Shown here: positions 561 through 24,909 of the stretch, one piece after another | How positions within the stretch are numbered: the first letter of the stretch is position 1 | Layout of the letters: each line of letters opens with the position of its first letter | Source: a virus | Length of the DNA: 37,967 bases | Direction: 5' to 3' (one strand) | Virus record (IMG/VR): IMGVR_UViG_3300046167_000393 | Coordinates: 1-37,967 of that record | The notes under the pieces: generated by a model | What the model saw: the letters and a program-made list of their open reading frames with translations, nothing else | Database searches by the model: none | Told to the model about the DNA's origin: nothing | Made by a program: the position numbers and the translations under genes

Positions 561-650
561 TACATAGTGTATTATATTACATAATGTATTATATTGCATA
601 GTGTATTATATTACATAGTGTATTATATACATAGTGTAATACATAATGTA
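561..650. repeat. TACATARTGTA direct-repeat array (six units)
   Basis: Units start at 561, 578, 595, 612, 628 and 640. Five read TACATAGTGTA or TACATAATGTA and the third starts TGCATA. Spacing is 17, 17, 17, 16 and 12 bases, and TATTA usually links the units. Each unit is a near-palindrome (TACAT-A-RTGTA). The array occupies the gap before the tail operon and is identical in the second terminal copy (36637-36726). The same unit occurs three times at 24856-24909. This looks like a set of protein-binding sites (operator or replication iteron). Confidence 0.8.
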
Positions 651-737
651 TATATACATATATATTACATATATATCTGACATATATTCAGTTGGAATAA
701 GTAAAGTACAAAAACAATCTAAATTATTATTTATTAT

Positions 738-1454
738 ATGGCACTAAAACAAATTGAACTAGAAGTACCAACAACTCTATCTGACATTAAACTTTGGCAA
801 TACCAAAAGTATATGAAAATCTTAGAGCAAAATAAAATAGAAGATGCCGAAGATCAAGATCAGGTAATGGATTTCTTAAACATGAAACTTGTTGAGATAT
901 TTTGTAACGTATCTCTTATTGATGTAAGCAAGATACCGTTAAACGAATACAATAAAATACTAGAAATATTAAATAAGGCATTTCAAGAAAAACCTAAGCT
1001 TGTGCAAAGATTTGACTTGCTTGATGTTGATATGGGATTTATACCCAAACTTGACGACATCACACTTGGCGAATATGTAGATATTGAATCAAACATTTCT
1101 GATTGGCAAAAAATGCACAAAGCTATGGCTGTATTGTATCGCCCAGTTAATTTTAAAGTTAAAGATAAGTATGGAATTGCACCGTACAAGGTTAATGAAG
1201 AAACGCAAGAGTTAATGAAAGAAATGCCATTAGATGTTGCAATGAGTTCGATGGTTTTTTTTTACGATTTAGGGAAGGAGTTGCTGGGAGCTATACCGAA
1301 ATATTTGGAGGCGAATTTGAAGAAAGAGGGTATGCAGACGCTAGACAAGCATTTGGAAAAAAATGGGGGTGGTATCAATCAATTTATGCACTCGCTAAAG
1401 GAGATGTCAGAAACTTCAATGCAGTTACCGAACTTCCACTCTACCAATGTTTAA
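738..1454 (+). CDS. Putative tail assembly chaperone, short form (238 aa)
   Basis: This acidic, mostly helical protein opens the tail operon. By position and by its frameshift signal I read it as the G-like short form of a tail assembly chaperone, which in siphoviruses binds the tape measure protein during tail building; I cannot name a family from sequence alone. About 29 codons before its stop lies GAA AAA AAT with seven A's in a row. A -1 slip there opens a 53-codon extension that ends exactly on the next start codon. Unlike most siphoviruses, the tape measure gene is not adjacent but four larger genes downstream. Confidence 0.6.
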   Translation: MALKQIELEVPTTLSDIKLWQYQKYMKILEQNKIEDAEDQDQVMDFLNMKLVEIFCNVSLIDVSKIPLNEYNKILEILNKAFQEKPKLVQRFDLLDVDMGFIPKLDDITLGEYVDIESNISDWQKMHKAMAVLYRPVNFKVKDKYGIAPYKVNEETQELMKEMPLDVAMSSMVFFYDLGKELLGAIPKYLEANLKKEGMQTLDKHLEKNGGGINQFMHSLKEMSETSMQLPNFHSTNV

Positions 1455-1525
1455 ATTACTTAGCATTTGAAAAAGAGAAAATAGATATAGAACAACAAGA
1501 AATAAAAAAAGCATATAAAAGATGA
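1364..1525 (+). CDS. -1 frame extension of the 738 gene (GT-like long form)
   Basis: Read in the -1 frame from TGG at 1364, these 53 codons encode a sensible protein. It begins WGWYQSIYALAKGDV, continues through TELPLYQCLNYLAFEKEK and ends before TGA at 1523-1525. That TGA overlaps the ATG of the next gene (ATGA, 1522-1525), the usual phage coupling arrangement. The slip site is the A-run 1357-1363 (zero frame A AAA AAT). The fused product would be about 262 aa. The run and the extension frame are present in both terminal copies; a G-to-A change at 1521 gives only Arg to Lys. This supports a functional frameshift over an assembly error. Confidence 0.62.
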   Translation, partial: WGWYQSIYALAKGDVRNFNAVTELPLYQCLNYLAFEKEKIDIEQQEIKKAYKR

Positions 1526-2013
1526 CAGGTTTTTACGATATACTAGATAAATTAAAAACATATCTACAAGGCAACAACAATGTTAACACAGTTACATTTG
1601 GAGATATATTTGAAGTTGATCTTGCTAAACAAACTATATTTCCATTATCTCACATAATTGTAAATAGTTGTACATTTCAAGATCATGTTGTAGTATTTAA
1701 TTTACAAATATTATGCATGGATATTGTAAATGAAACTAAAGAAGATAAGAAAGATTTAAATAACTACTTTCACGACATAAACAACAAACAAGATGTGTTA
1801 AACACTCAGTTTGCCGTAGTTAATGGATTACAATCTGCACTAAGAAGAGGTGAGTTGTTTTCTGATTTGTATCAAATAGATACAGATTACACCGCTAATA
1901 TGTTTGAGGACAGGTTTGAGAATCTACTTGCTGGCTGGACGCTGGACGTATCAATTACAGTAGCAAACAATCAAATATCAGATATTAATGCTAATGGTCA
2001 ATCTCCTTGCTAA
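1522..2013 (+). CDS. Putative tail terminator/completion protein, 163 aa
   Basis: Small alpha/beta protein starting MTGFYDILDKLKTYLQ, followed by the motif VTFGDIFEVDLAKQTIFPL and, near residues 125-140, FEDRFENLLAGWTLDV. Proteins with this layout recur in phages of Bacteroidetes next to the HK97-gp10-like gene. Position and size fit a tail terminator or head-tail completion protein, an inference from context. The ATG overlaps the stop of the frameshifted product. The stop at 2011-2013 overlaps the next ATG (TAATG). Confidence 0.55.
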   Translation: MTGFYDILDKLKTYLQGNNNVNTVTFGDIFEVDLAKQTIFPLSHIIVNSCTFQDHVVVFNLQILCMDIVNETKEDKKDLNNYFHDINNKQDVLNTQFAVVNGLQSALRRGELFSDLYQIDTDYTANMFEDRFENLLAGWTLDVSITVANNQISDINANGQSPC

Positions 2014-2597
2014 TGAGTTTTAAACTAGACAATACAAAAAAATACTTAGCAGAATATTCTAAGAATCTATTAAAGTTAGCAAAGATAGAAATAGAAAAAG
2101 CTGACAGAACTAGAAGTTATAGAAGTGGGAGTATTACAGGAGCTATAGATGCAAGCGGAAGTTTAAAAGATAGTTTGCGACTTCAGGGTGCAAAAACTAC
2201 AGGTGTTGTTTATAATTATAGCATAACAGGAAATGCGTATGGGGAAGCTGTAGACGAGGGAACAAAAAGATCAACACCACCTGTACAAAAGTTAATCAAC
2301 TGGCTTGTATCAAAAAACAAAACACTTGTAGATTCAAAAAAAAACATAGTACAATTAAACGATTTTAAGAAAGTAAGAAGAATTGCATTTGCAATACAAA
2401 AATCATTAAACATAAATGGAATACAAAGAACTGGATTTATAACAGATTTAGTAAATGCTGAGTTTAAACAATTAAACGACATATATAAACCTGTAGTTAA
2501 AGATATTGAGGTTGATATAGACAATATTTTACTTAAAGCAGGATATAAAAAGAAAGGTAAAGATACTTACACAATAGAAACGCAAATTAAAGGATAA
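2013..2597 (+). CDS. HK97 gp10-like head-tail/tail completion protein
   Basis: I choose the ATG at 2013, which overlaps the upstream stop, over an in-frame TTG at 2007. The central part (YGEAVDEGTKRSTPPVQKL, about residues 70-88) matches the conserved feature of HK97 gp10-like minor structural proteins, a basic N-terminal helix followed by an EYG-x-EEGT-like turn. These proteins act at the head-tail joint or tail terminus. About 194 aa, strongly basic, with no membrane segment. The stop overlaps the next ATG. Confidence 0.6.
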   Translation: MSFKLDNTKKYLAEYSKNLLKLAKIEIEKADRTRSYRSGSITGAIDASGSLKDSLRLQGAKTTGVVYNYSITGNAYGEAVDEGTKRSTPPVQKLINWLVSKNKTLVDSKKNIVQLNDFKKVRRIAFAIQKSLNINGIQRTGFITDLVNAEFKQLNDIYKPVVKDIEVDIDNILLKAGYKKKGKDTYTIETQIKG

Positions 2598-3763
2598 TGT
2601 CAACAATAATAAATACTAGATCACCGTTTTACAAAAAGATAACTAATTCATCTTTACATACAGCAAAACTAGAGCTGTATATTTGGACAGGTGTATACTC
2701 AGATAGAGCAGCTACAGATAAAAGATATACATTAACTAAAGAAGAAATTGGAGGTAATAACTTTGTTACTTATGAATTAAGTAAGTTAATCAGGGATTAC
2801 ATGATTACAGAATATAATAATTATTCTACAGATTCTCTTTGGGTAGATGCTGTTGTAGAGATTAGAGATTCTAGTAATGCTATTGTACAAGTTGGTGGAT
2901 CAGATACAACAACAAGTACATATTTGGCAATAGATGGATATGGTTATTTTGAGGATGGTGCTAATCCTAGAAGCACGCAGTATACAACCCCTATGTTATT
3001 GCAAAATAACACTACAATTTATTATAGCGATGGACAAGACATAAGAATACCTGTATATGCCGAAGCTGCAACTGTAACAGCTACACTGTCTCCAAGCGTT
3101 ACTGATCCTGACGTAAAATGGAATTTAGCTGATATATTTTGGCAAGCAGGTAGTGATACTTGGAATGGAGGTAATTCAAACTTATCTGTTACAGATAATG
3201 GTAATAGCGATCAGAAAATACAATATTTAATAATTATTGGCACACAAGATTTAGTTGATAATTCAACACTAACTTTATCTAGTAACAATTCTTCATACTC
3301 TACAAATACTGTTATCACGCTAACAAAGGTATGTGAACCTAAGTATGTTCCACTTAGTATTATATTTTACAATAAATATGGTGCTCTACAAAATATGTGG
3401 TTCTTTAAGAAATCTATTACAGATATAAATATAACATCTGAAACGTTTAAGAATAACATGATTGACTTTGATAACTCAGGAGGTACTCCTAGTTATGCAC
3501 TTACAAAACACCAAGAGAAAAAATTTATTGCTAACGGTAAAGAATCTATTACAATAAACTCTGGGTTTTACGATGAATCGTTTAATGAGGTAGTTAGACA
3601 AATGTTATTATCTGAACAAGTATGGATTTATGATGGTAGTAGTACTTTGCCTATAAATTTAAAATCAAATACATTACAGTTTAAAAAATCTGTAAACGAC
3701 AAATTAATTAGCTATACTATATCATTTGAGTATGCCTTTGATAAAATAAATAACATTATATAG
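2597..3763 (+). CDS. Tail/baseplate structural protein, 388 aa
   Basis: Beta-rich, Ser/Thr/Asn-rich protein with no enzymatic motif I recognise. Translationally coupled on both sides: its ATG overlaps the previous stop, and its TAG at 3761-3763 overlaps the GTG start of the next gene. Lying between tail completion genes and the tape measure gene, it is most likely a tail or baseplate component. The exact role cannot be read from sequence. Confidence 0.55.
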   Translation: MSTIINTRSPFYKKITNSSLHTAKLELYIWTGVYSDRAATDKRYTLTKEEIGGNNFVTYELSKLIRDYMITEYNNYSTDSLWVDAVVEIRDSSNAIVQVGGSDTTTSTYLAIDGYGYFEDGANPRSTQYTTPMLLQNNTTIYYSDGQDIRIPVYAEAATVTATLSPSVTDPDVKWNLADIFWQAGSDTWNGGNSNLSVTDNGNSDQKIQYLIIIGTQDLVDNSTLTLSSNNSSYSTNTVITLTKVCEPKYVPLSIIFYNKYGALQNMWFFKKSITDINITSETFKNNMIDFDNSGGTPSYALTKHQEKKFIANGKESITINSGFYDESFNEVVRQMLLSEQVWIYDGSSTLPINLKSNTLQFKKSVNDKLISYTISFEYAFDKINNII

Positions 3764-6450
3764 TGAGACAAGTTGTATTATACATAAAAGACAATAGTGG
3801 AAACTATCAGTTAACAGAAATGTTTAAAGATGAAACTATAACTATAACATCTAAACTACAAGACGTTAGAGATATATCTAAAGTATTTACTGACTTTAGT
3901 CAACCATTTACAATACCTGCATCTAAAGAAAATAATAAAATATTACAACACTGGTATAACTTTAATATAGATGTTGAATATGATTCTGAAGGAGTAATAC
4001 AAACAGGTTTTGACAATAGAGTTAAAAGAGACGCTTTACTTGAATTAGATTATGCTCCTTATAAAGCAGGTAAGATAGATTTAGAATCTGTTAACATGAG
4101 AAATGGCAAACCATTTTCTTATACACTTATTTTTTATGGCAATACAGTTTCATTAAAGACATTAATGGGTGATGACAAATTAAACACACTTAATTATTTA
4201 GACGACAATTACAATCACGATTACAATGCTACTGATATTAGAACTGCTGTAAGGAATGGGTTGTTTTCACAATCAAACAATGTGCCAGCTATAATATATC
4301 CTTTAATATCACACACTAAAAGATTTTATTACGATAGCGAAAACAGTTTGCCACAATTTAGCGGTAATTTATATCATAACTCATCCAACCCTTCTGACAA
4401 TCAGGGATTAGCTTGGACAGATGTAAAACCTGCTGTCACATGTTTAAATGTAATAGAAGCTATAGAATCTAAATATAATATAACTTTTACTAGAGATTTC
4501 TTTGGAGCTACAGCATTTTCTAATTTATATATATGGTTAAGCAGAAACAAAGGACCTATAGGCGGTGATGATGATGATGGTGTGTTAAAAACAAGAATAC
4601 TTGGAGATTGGTCAAGAACATCTGGATACACAGGTTTTACTGTATCTAGCACAGTGTGGAGTTTTTCTTTAGTAAAAAATACAAATACTTTTACAGGGGA
4701 TTTAGATGTTACCGTAGATACTGCTGATTCAAGTAAAGTTTACACACTAAAAGCGTTAGATTTAGAAAATGGATCAGTTGTTTCAGAAATTACTGGTTTA
4801 ACAGGAGATCAAACATTATCTGTAGCTTTTCTTAATACTAATAGCCATCAAATAAGATTTGTAATGGAATCTACAGAATCTATTTCTTTTAGTGCTACTC
4901 TTGAAATAGAAGAGCAAATATTTTCAACAAGTACAACTAACACTGCTGTATATTCAACTGGATCAATTAGTTCTACAGAACAAATTATTATTACTGAAAA
5001 CACTCCTGATATAAAAAACATAGATTTCTTAACAGGTATATTTAAAATGTTTAATCTAACAGCTTATTTTATAGACGACATATCTGATCCTGATTACGGT
5101 AAAATATATGTAGATACTTTAGATAATTTTTATCTGACAGGAAATTATTATGATGTTAGTGCAGATATAGACGTTAAAACATCCGACATAAATGCACCAA
5201 CAAACTATAGTGGAATTGATTTTGTATATGAAGAACCTAGTACTTTAGTTTCTATAAATCATGAAGAACAATTTAATGATGTGTTTGGTGATGCACATGT
5301 TAGAAGAACTAATATTGATAAAACAGAAATATATAAAGTAGAAGCTCCATTTGAACACATAAAGTATGAAAGAATAATAGATACTAATAAAACATCTACA
5401 TCACCATACTCTACAATAGTTTCTCCTACACCATATATAACAGATATACAATGGGGATATTCTGCTGACGGTGAATTTAATGGCACTTTTACACCTAAAG
5501 TACAAGGTGCTGCAACCAATACATTATCTAATAAACTAAAAGACACTAATCAAGAATTTAATAACAAGGTAGAGGTTGGTGATGTTGTAAGAAACTTAAC
5601 AGATAATACATCTGCTAAAGTTACTGTAGTTGATAGTGCAGATACACTTTCTTTATCTAGTGATATTATGGCAAGTGGAGAAAGCTATATGATATTAGGA
5701 GATTATACTGAGCTTGGTAATTATGAGCCAGTGCTATGTAAACCTTTGATTTTTTATGGAATAAGAGAATCTATGGGTTCTACTAAAAGAATAAACTGGA
5801 TTAGCGGTGGTTCTGCTGGTTTGAGTTTTTATTATCGACCATCTAATACTAATGTTGAAGGTGCAACTACTGTTCCCCCTGCTTATACAATAAACTTTGA
5901 CAATGAAGTTGATGAATGGAACTTGACAGATTATAGCAACTTAACACCACCTCAATCTACTAATTCTTTGTTTAAGAAATTTTATGAGGATTATGTAGAA
6001 GATTTGTTTGATGTAAAGAAAAGAATATTTAAGGTAAAAGCACATTTGTCAATGGAGGTAATTATAAATCTTAAGCTTAACGATACTTTAATTATAAATA
6101 ATCAAGCGTTTAAAATTAATTCTATAACTACTAATTTACAAACAGAAATGAGTGAATTAGAGCTGTTAAATGTTGTAAACAATTATTTACCATTATCACT
6201 ATCATTAGACAATGTGTATCAAACATTAGGTATTTATTACACATATTATTATAGTAATTCCATAGGTATAGCTAGTAATTTAAGTAATGGAGACATAATA
6301 TACACTGATTCTAATTTAACAAATACATTAAGTGCTGGAACTTATTATCAAGGAGGAGGTACTGAATCTACTAGAGTTTGTGATTTTGGTGGCAGTATAA
6401 CTGTAAACTCTGTAGGTCAGATAACAAGCATTGATTGTGCACAACCTTAA
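3763..6450 (+). CDS. Large tail/baseplate protein, 895 aa
   Basis: Starts at GTG 3763, overlapping the previous stop. The N terminus (about residues 1-140: short beta strands, then SKVFTDFSQPFTIPASKENN) resembles large structural proteins of Bacteroidetes phages; the rest is Asn/Thr-rich and beta-rich. The C-terminal 80 residues are rich in Tyr, Gly and Ser, like receptor-facing tips. No catalytic motif. Its size and place just before the tape measure gene suggest a baseplate hub or side-fibre attachment role, by context only. Confidence 0.55.
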   Translation: MRQVVLYIKDNSGNYQLTEMFKDETITITSKLQDVRDISKVFTDFSQPFTIPASKENNKILQHWYNFNIDVEYDSEGVIQTGFDNRVKRDALLELDYAPYKAGKIDLESVNMRNGKPFSYTLIFYGNTVSLKTLMGDDKLNTLNYLDDNYNHDYNATDIRTAVRNGLFSQSNNVPAIIYPLISHTKRFYYDSENSLPQFSGNLYHNSSNPSDNQGLAWTDVKPAVTCLNVIEAIESKYNITFTRDFFGATAFSNLYIWLSRNKGPIGGDDDDGVLKTRILGDWSRTSGYTGFTVSSTVWSFSLVKNTNTFTGDLDVTVDTADSSKVYTLKALDLENGSVVSEITGLTGDQTLSVAFLNTNSHQIRFVMESTESISFSATLEIEEQIFSTSTTNTAVYSTGSISSTEQIIITENTPDIKNIDFLTGIFKMFNLTAYFIDDISDPDYGKIYVDTLDNFYLTGNYYDVSADIDVKTSDINAPTNYSGIDFVYEEPSTLVSINHEEQFNDVFGDAHVRRTNIDKTEIYKVEAPFEHIKYERIIDTNKTSTSPYSTIVSPTPYITDIQWGYSADGEFNGTFTPKVQGAATNTLSNKLKDTNQEFNNKVEVGDVVRNLTDNTSAKVTVVDSADTLSLSSDIMASGESYMILGDYTELGNYEPVLCKPLIFYGIRESMGSTKRINWISGGSAGLSFYYRPSNTNVEGATTVPPAYTINFDNEVDEWNLTDYSNLTPPQSTNSLFKKFYEDYVEDLFDVKKRIFKVKAHLSMEVIINLKLNDTLIINNQAFKINSITTNLQTEMSELELLNVVNNYLPLSLSLDNVYQTLGIYYTYYYSNSIGIASNLSNGDIIYTDSNLTNTLSAGTYYQGGGTESTRVCDFGGSITVNSVGQITSIDCAQP

Positions 6451-6459
6451 AATATAATT

Positions 6460-6606
6460 ATGATAAAAAATATACTTGACTTATTAAATGCAGATCACTG
6501 GTATGGTGTTAGCGAAAATGTAGAAATTGCAAAAGGTAAATATGCAGGAGTAAAAGATTTTAAACAAATGAAAGAACAACTAAAAAGAATAAGACATGGC
6601 AACTAA
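6460..6606 (+). CDS. Small hypothetical protein, 48 aa
   Basis: A short reading frame in the 145-base gap before the tape measure gene, starting MIKNILDLLNADHWYG and ending KRIRHGN. It overlaps the tape measure start by 11 bases, a coupling typical of this genome. Charged, no Cys, no membrane segment. It could be a small tape-measure partner, but I recognise no family. Confidence 0.5.
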   Translation: MIKNILDLLNADHWYGVSENVEIAKGKYAGVKDFKQMKEQLKRIRHGN

Positions 6607-8719
6607 AAAAGTACTTATACAGGTTATATTAAACGATAAAGCTAGCAAGCAAATTAAAAAAACTGGTGATGAAGTTCAAAAATTATCTAGTAAGGTTACC
6701 ATATTAAACAAAGAACAAAAACAACAAATCATAAATGATGAAAAATCTGCTATACAGAAAAAGAATCTAATAAATGAGTTAAAAGCACAAGCAGCAGCAG
6801 AGATGAATGTTGTTGCAGCACAAAAACAAGGTAGAGCACAATCTGGATTAAACAATGCAATATTATTAGAAACTGGTCGTTTAGCTTCTGATGCATCTTA
6901 TGGATTTACTGCAATGGCGAATAACTTAGGGCAAATAGTTACCTTGTTTAGTAGTTTTGCAGAAACAAACGGAGGTGTAGTTGCATCTTTTAAAGAGTTA
7001 GGAAAGTCAATTATGGGTATGGGAGGTGTATTAATAGCTATACAGTTATTAATATCTTTTGGACCAAAATTAATTAAGATGTTCACAAACATGAGCACTG
7101 AGGGATATTTGTTAAGTCAAACATTTAAAGATGTTGGTAAAACCGTATCTAGTTTGTCTGGCAATTTTGAAACATACATAAATATATTACAAAGCTCAAC
7201 ACAATCAGAAGAAAACAAAAAGAAAGCGGTACAGGCATTAAATGATGAATATCCAGAATTTATAGAGAATTTAGATAAATCTGGTGTTTCTATGGAGAAC
7301 ATAAAAAACAACACAAAAGATGCTAATGAACAAATAGATTTACAAAGAACAGCAATACTTGAGCTTGCAAAATCTAGGGCGGCTACCGACAAAATACAGG
7401 AAGTACAAACAGAAATTATTAATAAACAAATTGAAAGAGAAAGAGAGTTAATAAGCGTAGGTGCTTTAGGTATGACGCAAGATCAGATGAGAGCTGAAGC
7501 AGATAAAATTGCTTTTGATGAGTTTACAACAATGGAAGAAGCAAGAAAATATAGCACCTTGCTAAGATTAGCAGACAATAAAGAAGAACATGATGAATTT
7601 ATAAAAGACAAACAAGAACAGATAGATTTATTGAGTGAATATGTAAAGGTTGAAATAGAAAGAACAAAAGGTAGCGAAGAACAAAAGAAATACTCTAAAC
7701 TAATAGTTGGTAACTTTGATAGAGAAATACAAGCTATAAAAGATTTAGGAAAAATAAGAAAACAATTCTTTGAGAAAAATCTACAACAAGACGTTAAAGA
7801 TAAAGAGACAGAAGAAGACAAAATCGATTTATTAAGAACACAAGCTTTAGCCAGAGTAGACGCAATTCAAGGAGGTGAAGTAGCAAAAAGACAAGCGAGA
7901 TTAGAAATTAATACTTATTATGACAAACTTGAAGAAGAAGCTGAAGAGAAAAAAGAACTAAAATTACAAGAGATAAGAAACAAATATCAGTTAAAAACTT
8001 TAAAAGTAGAAGAAGACACACTTGATGATCCAGAAACTTTAGACGAACTAGCCGTATTTGAAGAAAAACAATTAGCTAGATTTGCTAAAGAAGAAGAAAT
8101 GGCAATATTAGCATTAGATAAATTAAAATTATCTACAGAAGATAAAGAAAAAGCTGTAACAGACATAGAAGCATATTATGCTGCTGTTAGATTAAAAAAT
8201 GCTGCAGAAAATCAAAAAGCAAAAGAAAAAATAGACGAATTAGAAACAAAATCTAAACTAGAAGCGTTAGATAATATAGGTAAAGCATTGATGGCTGCAT
8301 CACAAATAGCAGGTAAAGCAACTGGTGCGGGTAAAGCTTTAGCTGTGGCAGGAACTTTAGTATCAACGTATTCAGCAGCACAAAAAGCTTATGAAAGCCA
8401 AATGACAGCAACTCCAGATTCTCCTATTAGGGCGGCTATTGCTGCAGCTGCAGCTATAGCACAAGGTTTAGCTAATGTAAAAGCTATTATGTCAGTTAAA
8501 ACACCTGCAATGAAAGGTGTTGGTTCTGTTACAGGTGGTGGATCAACTACAGTTCAAGCTCCTGACTTTAATGTGGTAGGACAGTCAGCTACAAGTCAAT
8601 TAGTAGGAGCTGTACAAGGTCAATTTGGCGGTGCACTTAAAGCTTATGTCGTTAGTTCAGAAATATCATCAGCTCAAGAATTAGACAGAAAAATAAACAC
8701 AACATCCGTTATAGGTTAA
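6596..8719 (+). CDS. Tail tape measure protein, 707 aa
   Basis: Long, highly charged, helical protein. The N-terminal 60 residues are coiled-coil-like; a hydrophobic segment lies at about residues 138-163 (GGVLIAIQLLISFGP); a long Lys/Glu/Gln-rich coiled coil spans about 200-570; an Ala-rich hydrophobic stretch lies near 580-645. This is the typical tape measure pattern, in which helix length sets tail length and the hydrophobic parts may help DNA cross the membrane. 707 aa implies a moderate siphovirus tail of roughly 100 nm by the usual per-residue rule. The protease gene follows directly. Confidence 0.8.
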   Translation: MATKKVLIQVILNDKASKQIKKTGDEVQKLSSKVTILNKEQKQQIINDEKSAIQKKNLINELKAQAAAEMNVVAAQKQGRAQSGLNNAILLETGRLASDASYGFTAMANNLGQIVTLFSSFAETNGGVVASFKELGKSIMGMGGVLIAIQLLISFGPKLIKMFTNMSTEGYLLSQTFKDVGKTVSSLSGNFETYINILQSSTQSEENKKKAVQALNDEYPEFIENLDKSGVSMENIKNNTKDANEQIDLQRTAILELAKSRAATDKIQEVQTEIINKQIERERELISVGALGMTQDQMRAEADKIAFDEFTTMEEARKYSTLLRLADNKEEHDEFIKDKQEQIDLLSEYVKVEIERTKGSEEQKKYSKLIVGNFDREIQAIKDLGKIRKQFFEKNLQQDVKDKETEEDKIDLLRTQALARVDAIQGGEVAKRQARLEINTYYDKLEEEAEEKKELKLQEIRNKYQLKTLKVEEDTLDDPETLDELAVFEEKQLARFAKEEEMAILALDKLKLSTEDKEKAVTDIEAYYAAVRLKNAAENQKAKEKIDELETKSKLEALDNIGKALMAASQIAGKATGAGKALAVAGTLVSTYSAAQKAYESQMTATPDSPIRAAIAAAAAIAQGLANVKAIMSVKTPAMKGVGSVTGGGSTTVQAPDFNVVGQSATSQLVGAVQGQFGGALKAYVVSSEISSAQELDRKINTTSVIG

Positions 8720-8738
8720 TTATATAAATCAATTTAAT

Positions 8739-9746: not shown

Positions 9747-9750
9747 TTAA

Positions 9751-9885
9751 ATGGCAAAAAGTAAAGAAACAGTAAGCAATAGTTCTCCAAAGAACAAAAA
9801 AAGAGGTTGCCTTTGTAAAAACGGAACATACTCTATAAAATGTTGTGACGGTACTTTAAGAGCACAAGGTGTTGGCAAAGTATAA
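9751..9885 (+). CDS. Small four-cysteine protein, 44 aa
   Basis: A tiny gene between protease and scaffold. It has a Lys/Ser-rich N terminus and a compact Cys core: Cys20 and Cys22 (GCLCKNGTYS), Cys31 and Cys32 (KCCDGT), then RAQGVGKV. The CxC...CC arrangement could bind a metal or form disulfides. Similar small proteins sit by head genes in marine flavobacterial phages. The function is unknown; a minor head or scaffold-associated role is only a guess from position. Confidence 0.65.
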   Translation: MAKSKETVSNSSPKNKKRGCLCKNGTYSIKCCDGTLRAQGVGKV

Positions 9886-17994: not shown

Positions 17995-20254
17995 TTTTCA
18001 AATAAGGAATACTAATAACACTGTTAATTCAGGTTATGGATGGTGGCTTGCACATGATACTAATTTTAATTTTGCGTTACATGCTGATGGTTCTGGTGAT
18101 AAGTTAACTATAACTAGATCAGGTGACGCAACTTTTGTTGGAAAAGTAGGTATTGGAGCAGCACCATCAACATCCGATTTACTTTTGGTAAAAGGTTCTA
18201 GTGGATCAGATGTTTCAACAAGATTTATGCCCTTTTCTAATAATGCTAAATCTACTTTATTTTTAAGTTCTGTTAGCTCAGGTGATGGAGGTTATTTTTA
18301 TGATTCTAACAATAATACAAGTGGTTTATTCGCTTATGGTGATTATACTTTTTATGTTGGAACAGGGAACTTAAGTGGTGCTGGACCAGCTAACCCTAGA
18401 ATGACTATAACACAAGCTGGTAGGGTTGGAGTTGGCAACCAAACACCAACAGAAAAACCATTTGAAGTTAATGGTGGAATTTTAGTTTATACCTCACGAT
18501 CTGGTTATGATGCAGATGGTATATTTTTTAGAGAGGGATTTACATCTGGATCATTAAAATATAATTGTTCAATCTTAGCAAAAGATCATAATGGTTCTTT
18601 TCCAGATGGTATTTCTATAAATGCTTATGATGGAATTTCTTTTTGTACTGGTTCAAATGACAGAAATCAAGTTGGTATGTTTGATGTTAGTGGAAATTTT
18701 GGAGTTGGCATTGATCCAGTTTCTAAAATGCACCTTAAATATAGTGGTGGTTCTTATGGAACAGAGGCAACATCTGGTTTTATAAATGAAGCAACTACTG
18801 GTCGAGCAACTATGAGGTTGAGAAGTTTGACTGATAATGCATCAGAACTATTTTTTGATAGCAATGGAGCTATAAGATGGGATATATCAGTTAGAAACTC
18901 ATCTGATAATTATAAAATGAATTTTTACCCACAAGCTGCAACACCAAGTTATACAGGTGTATCAGCACATACTTTTCATTTAGAACAAAATGGTGATGCT
19001 TACCATAGTGGTTCGGTAGGGATTGGATCATCTCCAACAGCTAAACTATCTGTTATAGGAACTGGAGGCGGAAATAATCCAACATTTGCTGTTGATTGTA
19101 CAAGCTCTTTAACTTTTAATCATGCTGTTGAAGTTTTTGCTGGAAATATGACTGCTAATGAATCAGTAATATCATTACTAGGTAGGGCAGGAAGCACAAA
19201 AAATTCTGGTTATTTAGGTTATTTATATTCTGGTACTGCTGGAAGTAATGCTAATATGCTAACATTAGGTATGTGGGGTGCTGATCATTTAGTAAAACTA
19301 AAAGGCAATGGTCAATTTGGTATTGGAACAACACCTGGCTATACTTTGGATGTTGCTGGTACTGCTAGATTAAAAGGACATACAACAGCAGTATTAAGAT
19401 TTGATACTGATGGTGCTGAAGCTAGTAATTATGTAGGTACTATAAATCAATATGAAAATGCTGTTTATTGTGGTCGTGGTTCAGCTGGTTTTCTTGTTGC
19501 TGGTAATTCAAATATTAGATTTGGTTTTGGAAGTGGAGTAACATTAGCACAATCTAAAATGGTCATTTACAATGGTGGTCAAGTTAATATTGGTACATCA
19601 TCAAATTATCAAGGCACTAGATTAAATGTCGAGGGTGATAGAATGGGTGTTAGAACAAGCAACAGTAGTTGGGGACAATTTTATATAGCAAATCCTGGCG
19701 ATGGTGAAGCTGCTATGGCTTTTGGTGCTAATGGAACTGGTCGACCAGGTGGTAATTCGACTTACGGAAGACAATGGATAATGGGGATTGGTCCATATAG
19801 CATTGGAACAAATAAGTGGGCATTGTCAAATAAAACATTACAAGGCAACCCAGCTATAACGATTATAGAAAATACTGGTGCTATGGGTTTACGAAAGGTA
19901 TCTCCTAGCTATCAATTAGATGTTACTGGTGATATAAGAGCTAGTAGTGATGTAATTGCATTTTCTGATAGGAGAGTAAAAGAAAATATTATTACTATTA
20001 ATAGTGCTTTAGATAAGGTTAGTAAGTTGAGAGGTGTTACATATACTAGGAAAGATACAGAAGATAAATCAACTAAACTCGGTGTTATTGCACAAGAAGT
20101 TTTAGAGGTGTTGCCAGAGATTGTTGCACAAGATAAAGATGGTATGTATTCTGTTGCTTATGGCAATATGGCTGGTGTATTTATAGAAGCTATAAAAGAA
20201 TTAAAAGCAGAGGTTGATAGTTTAAAACAAGAAATTAAAGAATTAAAAAAATAA
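17927..20254 (+). CDS. Tail fibre, C-terminal part with peptidase S74 chaperone
   Basis: 775 codons in the +1 frame relative to the upstream part. The ATG at 17927 lies inside the fibre and is probably not a true start: deleting one T from the run 17938-17943 joins NARGF to the in-frame AGGAYPLQ. Residues about 258-335 and 371-470 repeat two modules of the upstream part. The C terminus (about residues 679-775) is an S74 intramolecular chaperone: FSDRRVKENI, then KLGVIAQEVLEVLPEIV and a final coiled coil. This domain trimerises the fibre and then cuts itself off before the Ser of SDRR. Confidence 0.78.
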   Translation: MLEDFLIAGGAYPLQTSSTQRYNFQIRNTNNTVNSGYGWWLAHDTNFNFALHADGSGDKLTITRSGDATFVGKVGIGAAPSTSDLLLVKGSSGSDVSTRFMPFSNNAKSTLFLSSVSSGDGGYFYDSNNNTSGLFAYGDYTFYVGTGNLSGAGPANPRMTITQAGRVGVGNQTPTEKPFEVNGGILVYTSRSGYDADGIFFREGFTSGSLKYNCSILAKDHNGSFPDGISINAYDGISFCTGSNDRNQVGMFDVSGNFGVGIDPVSKMHLKYSGGSYGTEATSGFINEATTGRATMRLRSLTDNASELFFDSNGAIRWDISVRNSSDNYKMNFYPQAATPSYTGVSAHTFHLEQNGDAYHSGSVGIGSSPTAKLSVIGTGGGNNPTFAVDCTSSLTFNHAVEVFAGNMTANESVISLLGRAGSTKNSGYLGYLYSGTAGSNANMLTLGMWGADHLVKLKGNGQFGIGTTPGYTLDVAGTARLKGHTTAVLRFDTDGAEASNYVGTINQYENAVYCGRGSAGFLVAGNSNIRFGFGSGVTLAQSKMVIYNGGQVNIGTSSNYQGTRLNVEGDRMGVRTSNSSWGQFYIANPGDGEAAMAFGANGTGRPGGNSTYGRQWIMGIGPYSIGTNKWALSNKTLQGNPAITIIENTGAMGLRKVSPSYQLDVTGDIRASSDVIAFSDRRVKENIITINSALDKVSKLRGVTYTRKDTEDKSTKLGVIAQEVLEVLPEIVAQDKDGMYSVAYGNMAGVFIEAIKELKAEVDSLKQEIKELKK

Positions 20255-20257
20255 ATT

Positions 20258-20782
20258 ATGGCTTGTCCAAATGTTGCAAATGATGAAATTACAATGCTTA
20301 AAACAGCTAGGGAAAGAACTGGAGCTGGTTACACATCTAGTTTTTCTATTACAAATCCTATTTATATGTCAGATATACAAAGATTGAGTGGCGGTAATAC
20401 AAGTGGATCAGGTAATAGCTATCCAGCAGTTGCATTAGCAAATCCAATAAACAATCGACCAGATGGTGAAAATCCATTAGCTATGTCTGAGTTTAGTTTA
20501 TACGATCAAAACCCACCAAGAACTGCATTTATGTTTAATTATAATAGTTCATCTAGCAATAGTGCTTGTCAATTTGCAATACCTTTTGATACATATTATC
20601 ATGATGATGCAAATAATTTAGTGCCAGATGCTATAAATATTTATACTGCATACACAACCCAAACTGGAACAACAGTAGCGACAGCTGGTTACTATGCTAT
20701 ATACACAACTAGCGGATCGGCTAGTGGTTATTGGATGCAAGTTGGTAACAATGGATTAATAATTGCAACTGGAAGTTGTTAA
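20258..20782 (+). CDS. Hypothetical virion/tail-tip protein, 174 aa
   Basis: Starts MACPNVANDEITMLKTARER three bases after the fibre stop, so probably co-transcribed with it. Gly/Ser/Asn-rich, with NPIYMSDIQRLSGGN and MSEFSLYDQNPP, a pattern seen in tail-tip proteins that contain a short attachment region. It ends with Cys. Likely a receptor-facing accessory or fibre-associated protein. No enzymatic motif. Confidence 0.55.
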   Translation: MACPNVANDEITMLKTARERTGAGYTSSFSITNPIYMSDIQRLSGGNTSGSGNSYPAVALANPINNRPDGENPLAMSEFSLYDQNPPRTAFMFNYNSSSSNSACQFAIPFDTYYHDDANNLVPDAINIYTAYTTQTGTTVATAGYYAIYTTSGSASGYWMQVGNNGLIIATGSC

Positions 20783-20815
20783 AATAAAATTATATAAATA
20801 TAAATAAATAAAACT

Positions 20816-21151
20816 ATGACAAATACTTATACTTGGTCAATAACTCAATTAGATGCTAAAATACAACAAGACGACAATCAAAATGTGGTTTATATGATTC
20901 ACTTTATTTTTAGAGGTGAAAATCAAGAAAATCCAGAATACAATGCATCATATATAGGAACTGCTGGAGTTGAATATAATCCAGAAAATCCATTTATTAA
21001 ATATGATGATTTAACAAAAGAGGAAGTTATAAGTTGGATTACACAAACAGTCGAGGAAGATTGGCTAAAAGAATATGTTGATGATAAAATTGAATTATTA
21101 GTAAATCCAGTAGATGAGATTTTATATCCAAACTGGAACGATCCAGTATAA
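20816..21151 (+). CDS. Small conserved phage protein, 111 aa
   Basis: Begins MTNTYTWSITQLDAKIQ; similar TYTWxIxQLD proteins are widespread in marine phages downstream of fibre genes, often with a C-terminal Pro/Trp-rich end as here (YPNWNDPV). The centre is beta-rich, followed by an acidic helix (EEVISWITQTVEED). Function unknown. It is probably the last gene of the structural operon, since a promoter-like site follows. Confidence 0.62.
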   Translation: MTNTYTWSITQLDAKIQQDDNQNVVYMIHFIFRGENQENPEYNASYIGTAGVEYNPENPFIKYDDLTKEEVISWITQTVEEDWLKEYVDDKIELLVNPVDEILYPNWNDPV

Positions 21152-21156
21152 ATTAC

Positions 21157-21164
21157 TATATTTG
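21157..21164 (+). promoter_or_regulatory. Bacteroidetes-type -7 promoter element
   Basis: TATATTTG matches the Bacteroidetes -7 consensus TAnnTTTG, 25 bases before the ATG at 21189. No clear -33 TTTG lies 19-21 bases upstream. AATTTAATAT follows at 21176-21185. It probably drives the lysis cassette. Confidence 0.5.
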
Positions 21165-21188
21165 TAATATAACTATAAATTTAATATA

Positions 21189-21443
21189 ATGTCTAAAATT
21201 AAAGAAGAAGAATTAAAATTACTACAAGAAAGTCAAACACAATTAAATCAAATTGTTAATCAAATGGGCGTTTTGTCTATACAAAAAATTAATATTGACA
21301 AGCAAGAAAAATCTTTGTTAGAACAATTATCTGAAGTTGAAACAAAACAACTAGAGCTTAAGAAAGAGCTTGAGGAACAGTATGGTAAGGTTTCAGTTAA
21401 TTTAGAAGACGGTTCTTACGAAGAGATACCAGAAGATAAATAA
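21189..21443 (+). CDS. Small coiled-coil protein, 84 aa
   Basis: A single long heptad-patterned helix (about residues 5-66) followed by a conserved-looking end, YGKVSVNLEDGSYEEIPE. Small coiled coils with this YGxVxxNLEDGxY tail recur in marine phages near fibre and lysis genes. It could be a virion accessory or chaperone-like protein. First gene after the promoter at 21157. Confidence 0.6.
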   Translation: MSKIKEEELKLLQESQTQLNQIVNQMGVLSIQKINIDKQEKSLLEQLSEVETKQLELKKELEEQYGKVSVNLEDGSYEEIPEDK

Positions 21444-21447
21444 TATT

Positions 21448-21591
21448 ATGGGGTTTGCAGATATGAAATTATATTTTCTTAATTCAGTAGCTTTCGTTAT
21501 ATCATTAACAGAAGTAGAAATTACATTAAAAATTATATTACTTATTTGCACAATAGCTTATACTATTCAAAAAACTAGAAAAATAAAATGA
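21448..21591 (+). CDS. Small membrane protein in lysis cassette, 47 aa
   Basis: MGFADMKLYFLNSVAF, then a hydrophobic segment at about residues 27-40 (TLKIILLICTIAY) and a basic tail KTRKIK. The topology suits a small inner-membrane protein. Its stop overlaps the ATG of the next membrane protein (ATGA, 21588-21591). Similar small proteins precede lysis genes in marine flavobacterial phages; a holin partner or antiholin is possible. Confidence 0.6.
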   Translation: MGFADMKLYFLNSVAFVISLTEVEITLKIILLICTIAYTIQKTRKIK

Positions 21592-21869
21592 GTAAAGAAT
21601 TAAGTGAAGACAGTAAATTTGAAATTAGTATAAAAACACTTATAGCTATAGGAGCAGGATTGTCGGCTCTTATAGGTATGTGGTTTGCTTTACAAGCAGA
21701 CATAGAAGAGGCAAAAGAATTGCCTAAGCCAGAAATATCAAGAACTGAATACGATCTAAAAGATAAACTGGTAAGAGAAACTATCATGAATACTGGAAAG
21801 AAAGTTGAAGAAAACTCAGATGCTTTAAAAAAGATTGATGATAAGTTATTTGAAATAATTAGTAAATGA
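21588..21869 (+). CDS. Single-pass membrane protein, 93 aa
   Basis: Short cytosolic N terminus, one hydrophobic segment at about residues 14-35 (KTLIAIGAGLSALIGMWFAL), then a charged, helical soluble part ending in a coiled coil (ALKKIDDKLFEIISK). The layout resembles an inner-membrane spanin-like subunit, but no family is certain. Coupled to both neighbours: ATGA overlap upstream, 4-base overlap with the secreted thioredoxin-like gene downstream. Confidence 0.58.
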   Translation: MSKELSEDSKFEISIKTLIAIGAGLSALIGMWFALQADIEEAKELPKPEISRTEYDLKDKLVRETIMNTGKKVEENSDALKKIDDKLFEIISK

Positions 21870-22204
21870 AAAAATTATTATGTGCGATATTTGTATTGGT
21901 TGCGGCATCTGTATATAGTCAAGACATAACTGTCTTGCAAATAAATGCAGAGTGGAATAAAAAAAATAATTACGATTTAAGTAACATTACTGGTGCTACT
22001 GTTAAATTTAGCTATTTAAAAGATCAACCAAACGATGTACAGAACAGTATAATGGCTGTACCTGTTATTGTTATTATGGATCAAACTGGTAGAGTAAGGA
22101 TGCAATATGTTGCAGATATATCTTTACAAATAAAAGCTACTAACTTAGAAATACAAAATACTGTTGACAGATTAAAAAGAAGTAGAAGAGCAAGCACAAA
22201 TTAA
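21866..22204 (+). CDS. Secreted thioredoxin-like protein lacking the CxxC motif
   Basis: Signal peptide MKKLLCAIFVLVAASVYSQ with a cleavage-like site before Gln19, so exported to the periplasm. The rest reads like a thioredoxin fold: ITVLQINAEWNKKNN at the place of the usual ATWCxxC active site but with no Cys, and VPVIVIMDQTGRV matching the cis-Pro strand and hairpin. It is therefore unlikely to be a redox enzyme and may act by binding. In the lysis cassette between a membrane protein and a lipoprotein; a periplasmic helper of lysis is a reasonable but untested idea. Confidence 0.6.
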   Translation: MKKLLCAIFVLVAASVYSQDITVLQINAEWNKKNNYDLSNITGATVKFSYLKDQPNDVQNSIMAVPVIVIMDQTGRVRMQYVADISLQIKATNLEIQNTVDRLKRSRRASTN

Positions 22205-22563
22205 TGATGAGAATATTTATATGTATAATACTAATGTCAATAATAGGGTGCGGAACTTACACCCCAAAACCAATAATCAAACACGTTTTAGCGGTTACAT
22301 CAGAAGGAGATACTCTTCTATTACCAATAGATAAAATACGCCCTAATATTTATCAATCTATATATCCTTTGTATGCTAGGGAGTGGAATCCTTATTACTA
22401 CAATAATTGGAGATATAATAACATATACTCTGGCAATATATATTATGAATCTAATAGTAGTTCTAGTAACAATAATTCTAGCAATACATCTAGCAATCAT
22501 AATACTAAAGACATATCAAGAATAGATATGAACGCTATAAAAGCTAAACGTAATGATAAATAA
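22204..22563 (+). CDS. Putative lipoprotein, possible outer spanin, 119 aa
   Basis: Signal peptide with lipobox (LMSIIGCG, Cys at residue 16), so probably lipid-modified and anchored in a membrane. The middle contains EGDTLLLPIDKIRPNIYQS and an aromatic Tyr/Asn-rich stretch; a low-complexity Ser/Asn run follows at about residues 83-100. Position directly before the endolysin and after a single-pass membrane protein is compatible with an outer-membrane spanin. That assignment rests on context. Confidence 0.6.
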   Translation: MMRIFICIILMSIIGCGTYTPKPIIKHVLAVTSEGDTLLLPIDKIRPNIYQSIYPLYAREWNPYYYNNWRYNNIYSGNIYYESNSSSSNNNSSNTSSNHNTKDISRIDMNAIKAKRNDK

Positions 22564-23033
22564 TGGTTAATATAAGTAAACACATATCTTACAAGGAAGC
22601 TACTAGAAGTGCTACAGCTCTTAGATTAGGCATAGAAAACATACCTAATGAGTATGAGTTACAAAACATGGAGATCATAGCTAAGAAAGTGTTTGAGCCG
22701 TTAAGAGAAGCAGTTGATGCTCCTATAAAAATTAATTCATTCTTTAGAAGTGAAAAACTTAATAAAGCAATTGGTGGAAGTGGTAAAAGTCAACATTGTC
22801 AAGGTAGAGCTATTGATATTGATGATGTTTACGGCAGTGTTTCTAATGCTTATATGTTTTATTATATTAAGGATAATTTGGATTTTGACCAACTTATTTG
22901 GGAATTTGGTTCAGACGCTAATCCTGACTGGGTTCATGTTAGTTATGTAGACGAAGATTCTAATAGAAAAAGATGCCTTAAAGCAATTAGAGAAAACGGT
23001 AAAACTAAATATATTGATATAACAAATGTCTGA
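22563..23033 (+). CDS. Endolysin, peptidase M15 family
   Basis: 156 aa with the zinc D-Ala-D-Ala/L-Ala-D-Glu peptidase signature: SQHCQGRAIDID (His78 and Asp85) and DWVHVS (His125), preceded by INSFFRSEKLNKAIGG. These are the zinc ligands and substrate region of M15 peptidases, which cut peptidoglycan peptides. No signal peptide, so export would need the holin encoded next. The ATG overlaps the previous stop by one base. Confidence 0.86.
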   Translation: MVNISKHISYKEATRSATALRLGIENIPNEYELQNMEIIAKKVFEPLREAVDAPIKINSFFRSEKLNKAIGGSGKSQHCQGRAIDIDDVYGSVSNAYMFYYIKDNLDFDQLIWEFGSDANPDWVHVSYVDEDSNRKRCLKAIRENGKTKYIDITNV

Positions 23034-23226
23034 TAAAAAGAAGTTTAAAGAAACAACAGTTGGTAAGTTATTATTTGGTGCTGCATCAATGATAAATCCA
23101 ACACTAGGTAAAGTATTAAGTGGTGTAAGTTCACCACAAGAAGCGTTAGCTGAAATAGGTAAATCTAAAATATCTAATGAAGACAAGATTAAAGTTACAG
23201 CAAATGATTTACGATCAACAAAATAA
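23026..23226 (+). CDS. Holin, N-terminal part (split by frameshift)
   Basis: 66 aa starting MSDKKKFKETTVGKLLFGAAS, followed by a soluble linker with SNEDKIK. In related marine phages this basic start is fused to the membrane part encoded from 23177 here. Reading +1 after about 23200 (SNEDKIK then LQQMIYDQQ) restores one protein of about 152 aa. The break is a one-base frame change near ATTAAAGTTACAG, from a sequence error, a real mutation or a programmed shift. It overlaps the endolysin end by 8 bases. Confidence 0.6.
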   Translation: MSDKKKFKETTVGKLLFGAASMINPTLGKVLSGVSSPQEALAEIGKSKISNEDKIKVTANDLRSTK

Positions 23227-23485
23227 AGAAATAGAATCTATAACAAATAGATGGGAAGCTGATTCTATGAGTGATTCATGGCTAAGTAAAAACGTTCGTC
23301 CATTAGTTTTAGTGTGGTGTATAATTGTGTTTAGTTTAGCTGGCATTTTAGATAGCATAGAAAGCGTTCCATTCCACATTGGAGCAACTTGGAATGACAC
23401 ATTTGAGAAGGTTATGATGGCTGTTGTCTTAGCATATTTTGGTGGTCGTACCGCAGAAAAATCTACAAGTATATTTAAAGGATAA
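23177..23485 (+). CDS. Holin, membrane part (3TM phage holin-like)
   Basis: Contains SDSWLSKNVRPLVLVW followed by a hydrophobic segment, then a second one (VMMAVVLAYFGGRTAEK). The W-x5-RP motif before the first membrane helix is typical of the 3TM phage/GTA holin family, which forms the membrane lesion that releases the endolysin. ATGs at 23177 or 23204 could start it independently, but the stretch LQQMIYDQQNKEIESITNRW is normally internal, so I think it continues the 23026 frame. Confidence 0.65.
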   Translation: MKTRLKLQQMIYDQQNKEIESITNRWEADSMSDSWLSKNVRPLVLVWCIIVFSLAGILDSIESVPFHIGATWNDTFEKVMMAVVLAYFGGRTAEKSTSIFKG

Positions 23486-23491
23486 TAAATA

Positions 23492-23546
23492 AATTCAATA
23501 CCCTATGAATTTAATAGGTATTTTTATATCTTTGTGAATTCAATAG
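23492..23546. promoter_or_regulatory. Promoter region flanked by AATTYAATA boxes
   Basis: Boxes: AATTCAATAC 23492-23501, AATTTAATAG 23508-23517, AATTCAATAG 23537-23546. Between the last two lies TATCTTTG (23527-23534), a Bacteroidetes -7 element. The first two boxes also form an imperfect stem (AATACCCTAT / ATAGGTATT). Boxes on either side of a -7 element look like an operator for a repressor or activator of the replication operon. Confidence 0.62.
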
Positions 23547-23624
23547 GGTGCGATATTCTGTTGATTTTCTTTGTTTTCAGTAAAAAGGGGTAGCATAGTG
23601 TTGCCTCTTTTTTTTGTCTTTTAC

Positions 23625-23656
23625 CTTGCACATGACATATTTTATCTATATGTTTG
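23625..23656 (+). promoter_or_regulatory. Second promoter, possibly giving a leaderless ERF mRNA
   Basis: CTTG (23625-23628), 20 bases, then TATGTTTG (23649-23656) match the Bacteroidetes -33/-7 consensus. The ATG at 23661 is only four bases further on, at or next to the expected transcription start, so the message may have almost no leader. Confidence 0.5.
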
Positions 23657-23660
23657 TTGT

Positions 23661-24224
23661 ATGAAAAATCTAACAAAGAAGTTGGTGCGTATTCAAGGGA
23701 GTTTGAAAGCACCTAAAAATCAAAGGAATAACTTTGGTAATTACAATTACAGAAGTTGTGAAGACATCTTAGAAGCAGTAAAACCATTACTAGCAAAAGA
23801 AGAGTTGTTATTAACAATTACTGATTCTATTGCTCCAGAACCTTTATTTGTTAATGCAGTTGCAGAGATCACTGACGGTGTAGACAAAATACAAGTCAGA
23901 GCTCAAGCAGGTATTAACTTAAATCGTAAAGGAATGGATGTAGCTCAATGCTATGGTGCATCAAGCAGTTATGCTAGAAAGTACGCTTTAAACGGCTTAT
24001 TTTTAATTGATGATACAAAAGATGCAGATGCTACCAATAATCACGCTAACACATCTAAAAACGCCTCTACGGCTGTCTTAGAGCCAAATAAAGATTGGTT
24101 AGAAGACAAAGGAGACAAGTTTGATAAAGCTAAACAAGCTATAAAAGAAAAAGGTTTTACTATCACCGATATTAGAAAAAAATATAAAGTAAGTAAGAAA
24201 GTAGAGAAATTATTATTAACCTAA
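23661..24224 (+). CDS. erf: ERF-family single-strand annealing protein
   Basis: 187 aa from the ATG at 23661; an upstream in-frame start at 23571 would add 30 residues that include the promoter and is rejected. RNNFGNYNYRSCEDILEAVK and the later GMDVAQCYGASSSYARKYAL are the ERF-family signatures. ERF proteins anneal complementary single strands in phage recombination, often with a partner exonuclease; one is encoded at 28288. The C terminus (about residues 150-187) is a Lys-rich helical tail. First gene of the replication operon. Confidence 0.85.
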   Translation: MKNLTKKLVRIQGSLKAPKNQRNNFGNYNYRSCEDILEAVKPLLAKEELLLTITDSIAPEPLFVNAVAEITDGVDKIQVRAQAGINLNRKGMDVAQCYGASSSYARKYALNGLFLIDDTKDADATNNHANTSKNASTAVLEPNKDWLEDKGDKFDKAKQAIKEKGFTITDIRKKYKVSKKVEKLLLT

Positions 24225-24238
24225 ATTAAATTAAAATT

Positions 24239-24499
24239 ATGAATGAAAAAAAGTATGTAGGTAGTGGAAAAAAAGTTGGAAACTACGATTTAGTGAACTT
24301 CACAATTAGTGAAGAAAAAACACAAGATGCTTGGATTGAGTACAATGGTAAACGCTTTTTAAAGTTAACTATTGGAAATAAAAAACAAGTAGATCAATAC
24401 GGTAAAACACATTCTATATGGATTGATGAATATGTGCCCGAAAATAAAGAGGCACAAGCTCCTTCGGCACCACTTCCAGCACAGGATTTACCATTTTAA
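24239..24499 (+). CDS. SSB-like protein with DLPF tail, 86 aa
   Basis: Short beta-rich protein (YVGSGKKVGNYDLVNFTIS, then KRFLKLTIGNKKQVDQYGKT) with a Pro/Ala linker and the C-terminal end AQDLPF. That end matches the acidic-aromatic-type tip of bacterial single-strand DNA-binding proteins (DDIPF), which docks host replication proteins. It is shorter than a standard SSB. Lying between the annealing protein and the helix-turn-helix gene, it is probably an ssDNA-binding or replisome-recruiting protein. Family membership is inferred. Confidence 0.58.
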   Translation: MNEKKYVGSGKKVGNYDLVNFTISEEKTQDAWIEYNGKRFLKLTIGNKKQVDQYGKTHSIWIDEYVPENKEAQAPSAPLPAQDLPF

Positions 24500-24506
24500 T
24501 TAACAT

Positions 24507-24538
24507 TCCCCCATTACTTAATTGTTTTGGGGGATTTT
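24507..24538 (+). terminator. Probable intrinsic terminator
   Basis: TCCCCC (24507-24512) pairs with GGGGGA (24529-24534) across a 16-base AT-rich loop and is followed by four T's. The short T tract suggests partial termination between the SSB-like gene and the helix-turn-helix gene. Confidence 0.6.
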
Positions 24539-24549
24539 AATCTTACATT

Positions 24550-24855
24550 ATGACACAAAGAAAAAACACAAAATACGTTAACATTAATTTAGCATTTATG
24601 AATACAAACTTATCAATATCAGAAGCTACTGTATTATCCTATATAGATTCATTATCCATTAAGAAAGGTTATTGTTATGCCTCAAATGAAAGTATTTGTA
24701 TGGCATTAAACTTAAACGATAGAACTTTATACAGAATATTAAAGAGTTTAGAAAACAAAGAATACATAAAAAGAGTTACAAAGAGTTTAGGCAATGACGG
24801 AAAAGAACGTAAGATTTATGTCTCTCCAGATGCCAAGAATGTCAGTTGTATGTAA
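24550..24855 (+). CDS. Winged-helix DNA-binding protein, 101 aa
   Basis: About residues 20-80 form a winged helix-turn-helix like that of replication initiators and DnaD-type proteins: LSISEATVLSYIDSLSIKKG, then NESICMALNLNDRTLYRILK and SLENKEYIKRVTK. The C terminus is short (KNVSCM). One base after its stop begins a cluster of three TACATAGTGTA units, which also occur six times before the tail operon. A protein that binds sites next to its own gene is the obvious hypothesis, giving either autoregulation or origin recognition before the primase-helicase. Confidence 0.68.
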   Translation: MTQRKNTKYVNINLAFMNTNLSISEATVLSYIDSLSIKKGYCYASNESICMALNLNDRTLYRILKSLENKEYIKRVTKSLGNDGKERKIYVSPDAKNVSCM

Positions 24856-24909
24856 TACATAGTGTATTATATAAATAAATAATACATAGTGTATTATATA
24901 CATAGTGTA
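24856..24909. repeat. TACATAGTGTA repeat array (three units)
   Basis: Exact TACATAGTGTA units at 24856-24866, 24883-24893 and 24899-24909, each followed by TTATA. They fill the gap between the winged-helix gene and the primase-helicase and share the sequence of the array at 561-650. Candidate iterons or operator. Confidence 0.8.

Follow-up and report, generated by a model that had tools for sequence, protein, structure and literature searches.

The viral contig IMGVR_UViG_3300046167_000393 (an IMG/VR record of 37,967 bases, the whole of which is the window analyzed here) carries two arrays of a near-palindromic 11-bp unit, TACATARTGTA. One lies before the first gene of the tail operon (561-650, + strand); the other lies between the gene for a 101-aa winged-helix protein (24550-24855, +) and that for a primase-helicase (24938-26666, +). 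Among related contigs the unit changes at both places together, and the change follows the recognition helix of the winged-helix protein, which, as judged from comparison of sequences, very probably reads both arrays. On balance we take the arrays to be iterons of a two-site replication origin, with replication as their main role; an origin role for the protein and a transcription switch can coexist.

Details of the arrays are as follows. The tail-side array holds six sites, five exact (at 561, 578, 612, 628 and 640) and one, at 595, with a single mismatch (TGCATAGTGTA). The primase-side array (24856-24909, +) comprises three sites between the winged-helix stop and the primase ATG (24938), all exact, at 24856, 24883 and 24899. 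An earlier reading of the letters alone (the sequence-only reading) had listed six units and three exact units with a period of 16-17 bases: the three are confirmed, the six hold as a cluster once the mismatched site is admitted, and the period fits most start-to-start spacings (17, 17, 17, 16 and 12 bp on the tail side; 27 and 16 bp on the primase side), the exceptions being 12 and 27. The second cluster does adjoin the winged-helix stop, as that reading had it: the open reading frame (ORF) ends at 24855, the array starts at 24856 and the primase-helicase follows. The flanking palindrome of this array, TAATACA...TGTATTA, even extends into the stop codon. The contig ends overlap by 1891 bp, so that the tail-side array recurs as a third cluster at 36637-36726 (+).

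Exact units number eight per genome, all in the two arrays and none elsewhere, where ~0.10 would be expected per 36 kb. The genome-wide count that the sequence-only reading had proposed as a check thus confines the unit to the arrays, and this exclusivity rules out chance repeats as their source. An RNA hairpin element was also rejected: the units make weak stems, and both orientations occur in other classes of array (that of G013 and the TACAWTGTA class; G and L numbers are our handles for genomes and relatives). The array is indeed identical between the two terminal copies, as had been remarked, but this is weak evidence of conservation because the neighboring coding DNA is equally unchanged (there is no mismatch between 505 and 1141). 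The strong evidence for conservation comes from relatives.

Relatives were found by pattern and protein scans of viral contigs. Conservation, a further check proposed at the outset, is evident at both loci: the array next to the winged-helix stop is kept in all winged-helix relatives of 81-100% identity, its first site being the most variable, and the tail-side array is kept before the tail gene in tail-gene relatives down to ~65% identity. Sites per array range from 2 to 7. The unit itself comes in several types: TACATAGTGTA; TACAWTGTA (G002, G003 and G006, with a variant containing TACAACGTA in G037); TACATARAGTA (G013); TACACTWAGTGTA (G042); ACATGTTAT (G032); GTTACAAGTAAC; GTTACAAGTAACTGTATATA (G031); and an AT-only unit (G033). 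Wherever a genome has both loci, the winged-helix side and the tail side carry the same type of unit. By eye, and without a dated tree, we count at least five independent switches of type among these contigs, which are themselves not independent of one another.

The pairing of the arrays was evaluated by strand-insensitive comparison of 8-mers over seven motif classes. With three different sets of class representatives, the true pairing each time came out best of all 5040 permutations. The tail-side array shares more 8-mers with its own partner than with any of 20 other AT-rich segments of its genome in 12 of the 13 genomes; the exception is G033, whose AT-only arrays the measure ignores. When the primase-side array is replaced by dinucleotide shuffles of itself, most genomes show a clear excess for the real pair; in the window the excess is modest, 5 of 300 shuffles reaching it. 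What the two arrays have in common is only the unit, not the spacers.

That the arrays change jointly, and in step with the recognition helix of the winged-helix protein, argues strongly, though indirectly, for a single reader. One DNA-binding protein for both arrays had been suggested from the letters alone; joint change supports the suggestion and helix tracking makes the 101-aa protein the best candidate. Every array class has the gene, including G031, in which it lies elsewhere and has diverged. Of particular interest is G013, which in several genes is closer to the window than are G014, G018 and G023 (TerL 88% versus 83%, ERF 82% versus 64-67%), and in which the unit has nonetheless changed to TACATARAGTA. 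Its recognition helix reads NERTLYRIF, whereas 30 distinct winged-helix proteins accompanying a TACATARTGTA-type unit have NDRTLYR[IV]L. Four residues invariant in those 30 are changed alike in both altered proteins (C50S, D57E, L64F and K70R), and all four fall within residues 46-70, the helix-turn-helix (HTH) of the structural model; with 14 of 45 invariant positions in this span, which was chosen post hoc, the probability of four out of four is ~0.007. L362 and L365 carry the helix NERTLYRIF too, and their arrays proved to be of the altered class, with TACTTTATGTA (the reverse of TACATAAAGTA), TACATAGAGTA and TACATAAAGTA.

The family relationships of the protein point towards replication. 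It matches Pfam HTH_36 (PF13730; 5e-10, 39.4 bits where the gathering cut-off is 25) and phrog_428 (1e-13), and its PHROG matches are dominated by replication initiation proteins, although by their DNA-binding part alone: only residues 86-177 of the 455-aa phrog_428 are covered. The protein ends at 101 aa with no C-terminal domain after the HTH, and so has no loader domain of the kind found in phage replisome organizers. In an AlphaFold model (pLDDT 83) the first PDB fold matches of the predicted structure are the N-terminal domains of iteron-binding RepA proteins (4pql, 4pt7 and 5kbj). The likeness to RepA_N is one of fold only; that family (PF06970) is not among the Pfam matches.

The surroundings of the two arrays differ. 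An intrinsic terminator-like hairpin (23582-23612, +) closes the late region ahead of the replication operon, at whose head is a Bacteroidota-type promoter match (TTG-N20-TANNTTTG; 23626-23656, +); a similar match lies directly upstream of ERF in G002, G003, G006, G013 and G032. The operon runs from the ERF single-strand annealing protein (23649-24224, +; Pfam ERF, 2e-34) through an 86-aa protein (24239-24499, +) to the winged-helix gene, the array and the primase-helicase. The 86-aa product has no family match; its acidic C-terminal tail, sequence and synteny in relatives suggest a single-strand DNA-binding (SSB)-like protein. A second terminator-like hairpin (35983-36002) is followed in turn by an 81-aa gene, by the tail-side array and by the structural genes. 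The placing of terminators and promoter therefore puts the primase-side array inside the replication operon and the tail-side array, ~11.7 kb further on, near the head of the late region.

Some particular roles at promoters of the replication genes were considered and rejected. No TANNTTTG host-type promoter occurs in any array of 13 genomes, the host-type promoter being upstream of ERF, which speaks against a primase promoter inside the array. Activation of the primase by the winged-helix protein fails for lack of space: in G025 and G027 a full third site ends 4 bp before the primase ATG, leaving no room for a promoter activated from it. Autorepression at the promoter that drives the winged-helix gene fails too, there being no site near the ERF promoter. 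When duplex stability is calculated by nearest neighbors, the weakest 100 bp of the genome fall at an array in 11 of 13 genomes; in seven of the 13 the two arrays take ranks 1 and 2.

These properties recall known initiators, above all that of phage SPP1. Its gp38 recognizes arrays of repeats at both oriL and oriR, which are separated by ~12-13 kb, and oriR in its bound state is proposed to halt forks and to start concatemer replication (PMC6316719, PMC3485210). The likeness, which we draw from published descriptions, extends to direct-repeat arrays at two distant loci, one with the replication genes and the other in late intergenic DNA, and to the AT-rich DNA that adjoins both. Both phages are lytic siphoviruses with a single-strand annealing recombinase, an SSB and a Terminase_3-type TerL. 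SPP1 differs in having a larger initiator, a helicase loader (gp39), a DnaB-type helicase (gp40) and host primase, in contrast to a lone 101-aa DNA-binding domain and a fused primase-helicase; moreover, oriL lies inside gene 38, whereas the array of the window follows the winged-helix gene. No separate loader and DnaB-type helicase was seen in the window, where the gene after the winged-helix gene encodes the fused protein, and for this reason we say that the phage may work like SPP1, not that it is of the SPP1 type. A further parallel is satellite phage P4, whose alpha protein combines the activities of primase, helicase and origin binding and reads two separated repeat clusters, ori and crr: again two clusters and one replication protein, with an unrelated motif.

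Among plasmids, HTH_36 is the N-terminal domain of a working initiator, pPR9 Rep, and in pPR9 that domain and the origin have been exchanged together in an otherwise pSK41-like plasmid (PMC5703833), which parallels the joint change of winged-helix protein and arrays described above. The HTH_36 initiators (pPR9 Rep and the phage replisome organizers phrog_428, phrog_270 and phrog_186) thus share a DNA-binding family with the 101-aa protein, but carry a further C-terminal replication domain that it does not have. The nearest solved folds are the RepA_N initiators of pSK41/pTZ2162 and RepA of the satellite PLE; winged-helix dimers of this type bind semi-palindromic direct repeats in AT-rich origins (PMC7145576). 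They too have a long C-terminal domain, and belong to a Pfam family other than HTH_36. Finally, pRN1 has a small DNA-binding protein, ORF56, co-transcribed with a replication protein, ORF904; ORF56 is a transcriptional repressor and copy-control protein, and the available part of that report describes no second distant array (PMC4234260).

If the arrays are iterons, the winged-helix protein would bind each palindrome, probably as a dimer, and the dimers would fill the arrays and melt the adjoining AT-rich DNA. The primase-helicase encoded beside the array could then enter the melted DNA. The tail-side array might serve as a second origin, or it might block replication forks and thereby favor a change to concatemer synthesis with ERF and SSB. 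The whole would work like SPP1 gp38 with oriL and oriR, except that the initiator would consist of a DNA-binding domain and nothing more. From the comparisons above we infer binding as dimers, melting, recruitment of the helicase and the role of each array.

The sequence-only reading had offered two alternatives, a link from replication to late gene expression and iterons of an origin. Iterons fit better because the primase-side array is promoterless within its operon, a site abuts the ATG in G025 and G027, and the arrays are melting hot spots; a role at the late operon is possible but less likely. The same features, taken with the RepA fold, the PHROG initiators, pPR9 and SPP1, lead us to favor a two-site origin over a switch. 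Several observations weigh on the other side. Promoter regions rich in AT likewise melt with ease, and the stability result is confounded by the AT-richness of the motif itself. There is no GC-skew switch at either array, although, with every gene in the same direction, skew is uninformative as an origin signal. The last tail-side site of clade A genomes usually lies 98-105 bp upstream of the tail ATG, as a promoter element might. The winged-helix protein is without any C-terminal helicase-loading domain, and MarR- and PadR-type regulators are almost as close to it in fold and sequence. Lastly, G045 and G036 are without a primase-side array, which must therefore be dispensable; since G045 retains three tail-side units (ATGTATCATGATATA, 17-bp period), the tail-side array may be the more important.

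The main alternative is a transcription regulator. The winged-helix protein would then repress or activate the late operon at the tail-side array, perhaps with a sigma-like factor, and throttle the replication genes at the primase-side array, making an early-late switch. We consider this possible, if rather unlikely. Its appeal lies in the MarR/PadR-like fold neighbors, in the position of the arrays at the late-operon head and directly before the primase, in the state of G045, in a sigma-like protein encoded by the phage and in a conserved hairpin with a CAG-TGG/TACA element, which follows the tail-side array at a distance that varies little; the small protein of pRN1, co-transcribed with the replication protein, is likewise a repressor (PMC4234260). 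Yet neither array has a host-type promoter in the 13 genomes, no site lies near the ERF promoter that drives the winged-helix gene, sites that abut the primase ATG in some genomes leave no room for an activated promoter, and a regulator site need not be the least stable DNA of the genome.

It is improbable that something else reads the arrays (the sigma-like protein, a DnaA-domain-IV-like protein or a host factor) with the winged-helix gene as a bystander. Every genome compared has the sigma-like gene, but palindromes in both orientations are unlike promoter elements, and by our evidence the sigma-like protein is not the array reader. The DnaA-IV-like gene (29190-29663; its 157-aa product weakly matches the DnaA C terminus, E 0.06) was rejected as reader, being missing or barely recognizable in most array-bearing relatives. 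A host factor would not shift specificity with phage lineage, and the winged-helix recognition helix both tracks the motif and predicted the arrays of L362 and L365. Least probable is array likeness through recombination or copying without a common reader, or through AT-rich chance repeats: the arrays are AT-rich tandem repeats able to expand and contract, as their varying site number indicates, but they share a unit and not spacers, their classes have switched several times and always at both places, and the 8-mers they share far outnumber those shared with other AT-rich segments of their genomes.

Returning to the two-site origin, one extension can be put forward tentatively. A single free-standing DNA-binding domain might act as replication initiator and late-gene switch in one, firing the primase-side origin and, through its binding at the tail-side array, making late transcription or the concatemer switch depend on the level of initiator; initiator and both arrays would repeatedly change specificity together, making replication incompatibility groups of phages that are otherwise alike. 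Literature searches, with most subscription journals outside their reach, returned no description of a two-array winged-helix system. The sequence-only reading knew of no described system with this unit: that stands for the unit, but not for the architecture, given that SPP1 gp38 also binds two distant repeat arrays. We regard the finding as real and one protein for two arrays as well supported, with an architecture already paralleled in SPP1.

An initiator has to change along with its iterons, but it is rare to catch the steps. At least six matched specificities of a small protein and of arrays at two loci occur within this one phage group, and very few helix residues mark one of the switches. 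The group could serve as a compact setting in which to read out winged-helix recognition and to place origins in uncultured flavobacterial phages by sequence alone, and it lends itself to testing whether a bare DNA-binding domain starts replication with a fused primase-helicase.

Between the tail-side array and the ATG of the first tail-operon gene (738-1454, +; phrog_32199, 9e-23) is a short hairpin, CTGACATATATTCAG (677-691, +), a conserved candidate late promoter or 5′ leader element. Comparison of window positions 677-760 with relatives shows CTGCCACTACGGCAG or TGCCATACAGGCA elsewhere, with arms changed but matching. The hairpin is followed by GTTGG and often by a ...TACA box, and is kept before the tail gene even across changes of array class. 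This segment may hold a late promoter for the sigma-like factor, whose gene (26925-27494, +; NCBIfam sigma70-ECF 1.5e-6, below cut-off; PHROG sigma factor 1.7e-4) adjoins a small nuclease-like gene (26645-26935); phage P12024S similarly has a VRR-NUC gene and then a sigma region 2 gene. The product is a candidate late sigma factor.

The 81-aa gene upstream of the tail-side array (289-534, +; phrog_5945, 2e-5) is kept in most array-bearing relatives. The primase-helicase has zinc, Toprim and DnaB_C domains. In the window it is split into two frames near 25290, which is probably an assembly or sequencing error because eight close relatives have an intact ORF of 574-575 aa. Tenacibaculum phage JQ has a primase-helicase 54% identical to it, with no comparable array between the helicase and its upstream gene or in the larger gaps inspected.

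Relatives with a winged-helix gene but no array between it and the primase are L395 (G045, 19025 bp), L373-L375 and L366. Two TAG codons lie in frame within L391 (G043), a tail-gene relative of 39% identity whose contig nearly matches that of G045 in the region of the replication genes; this may reflect either recoding of TAG or a chimeric contig.

The virus infects marine bacteria, and its relatives are contigs of lytic phages of flavobacterial type. No relative of the winged-helix protein was found in bacterial genomes, and there is thus no evidence of a prophage. A single strand carries all recognized genes of a circle of ~36.1 kb. Where the contig ends (1-1891 and 36077-37967) overlap they differ by 26 mismatches, which cluster within the non-coding DNA at ~110-370; the two copies look like strain variation at the circular join, as if two strains had been joined.

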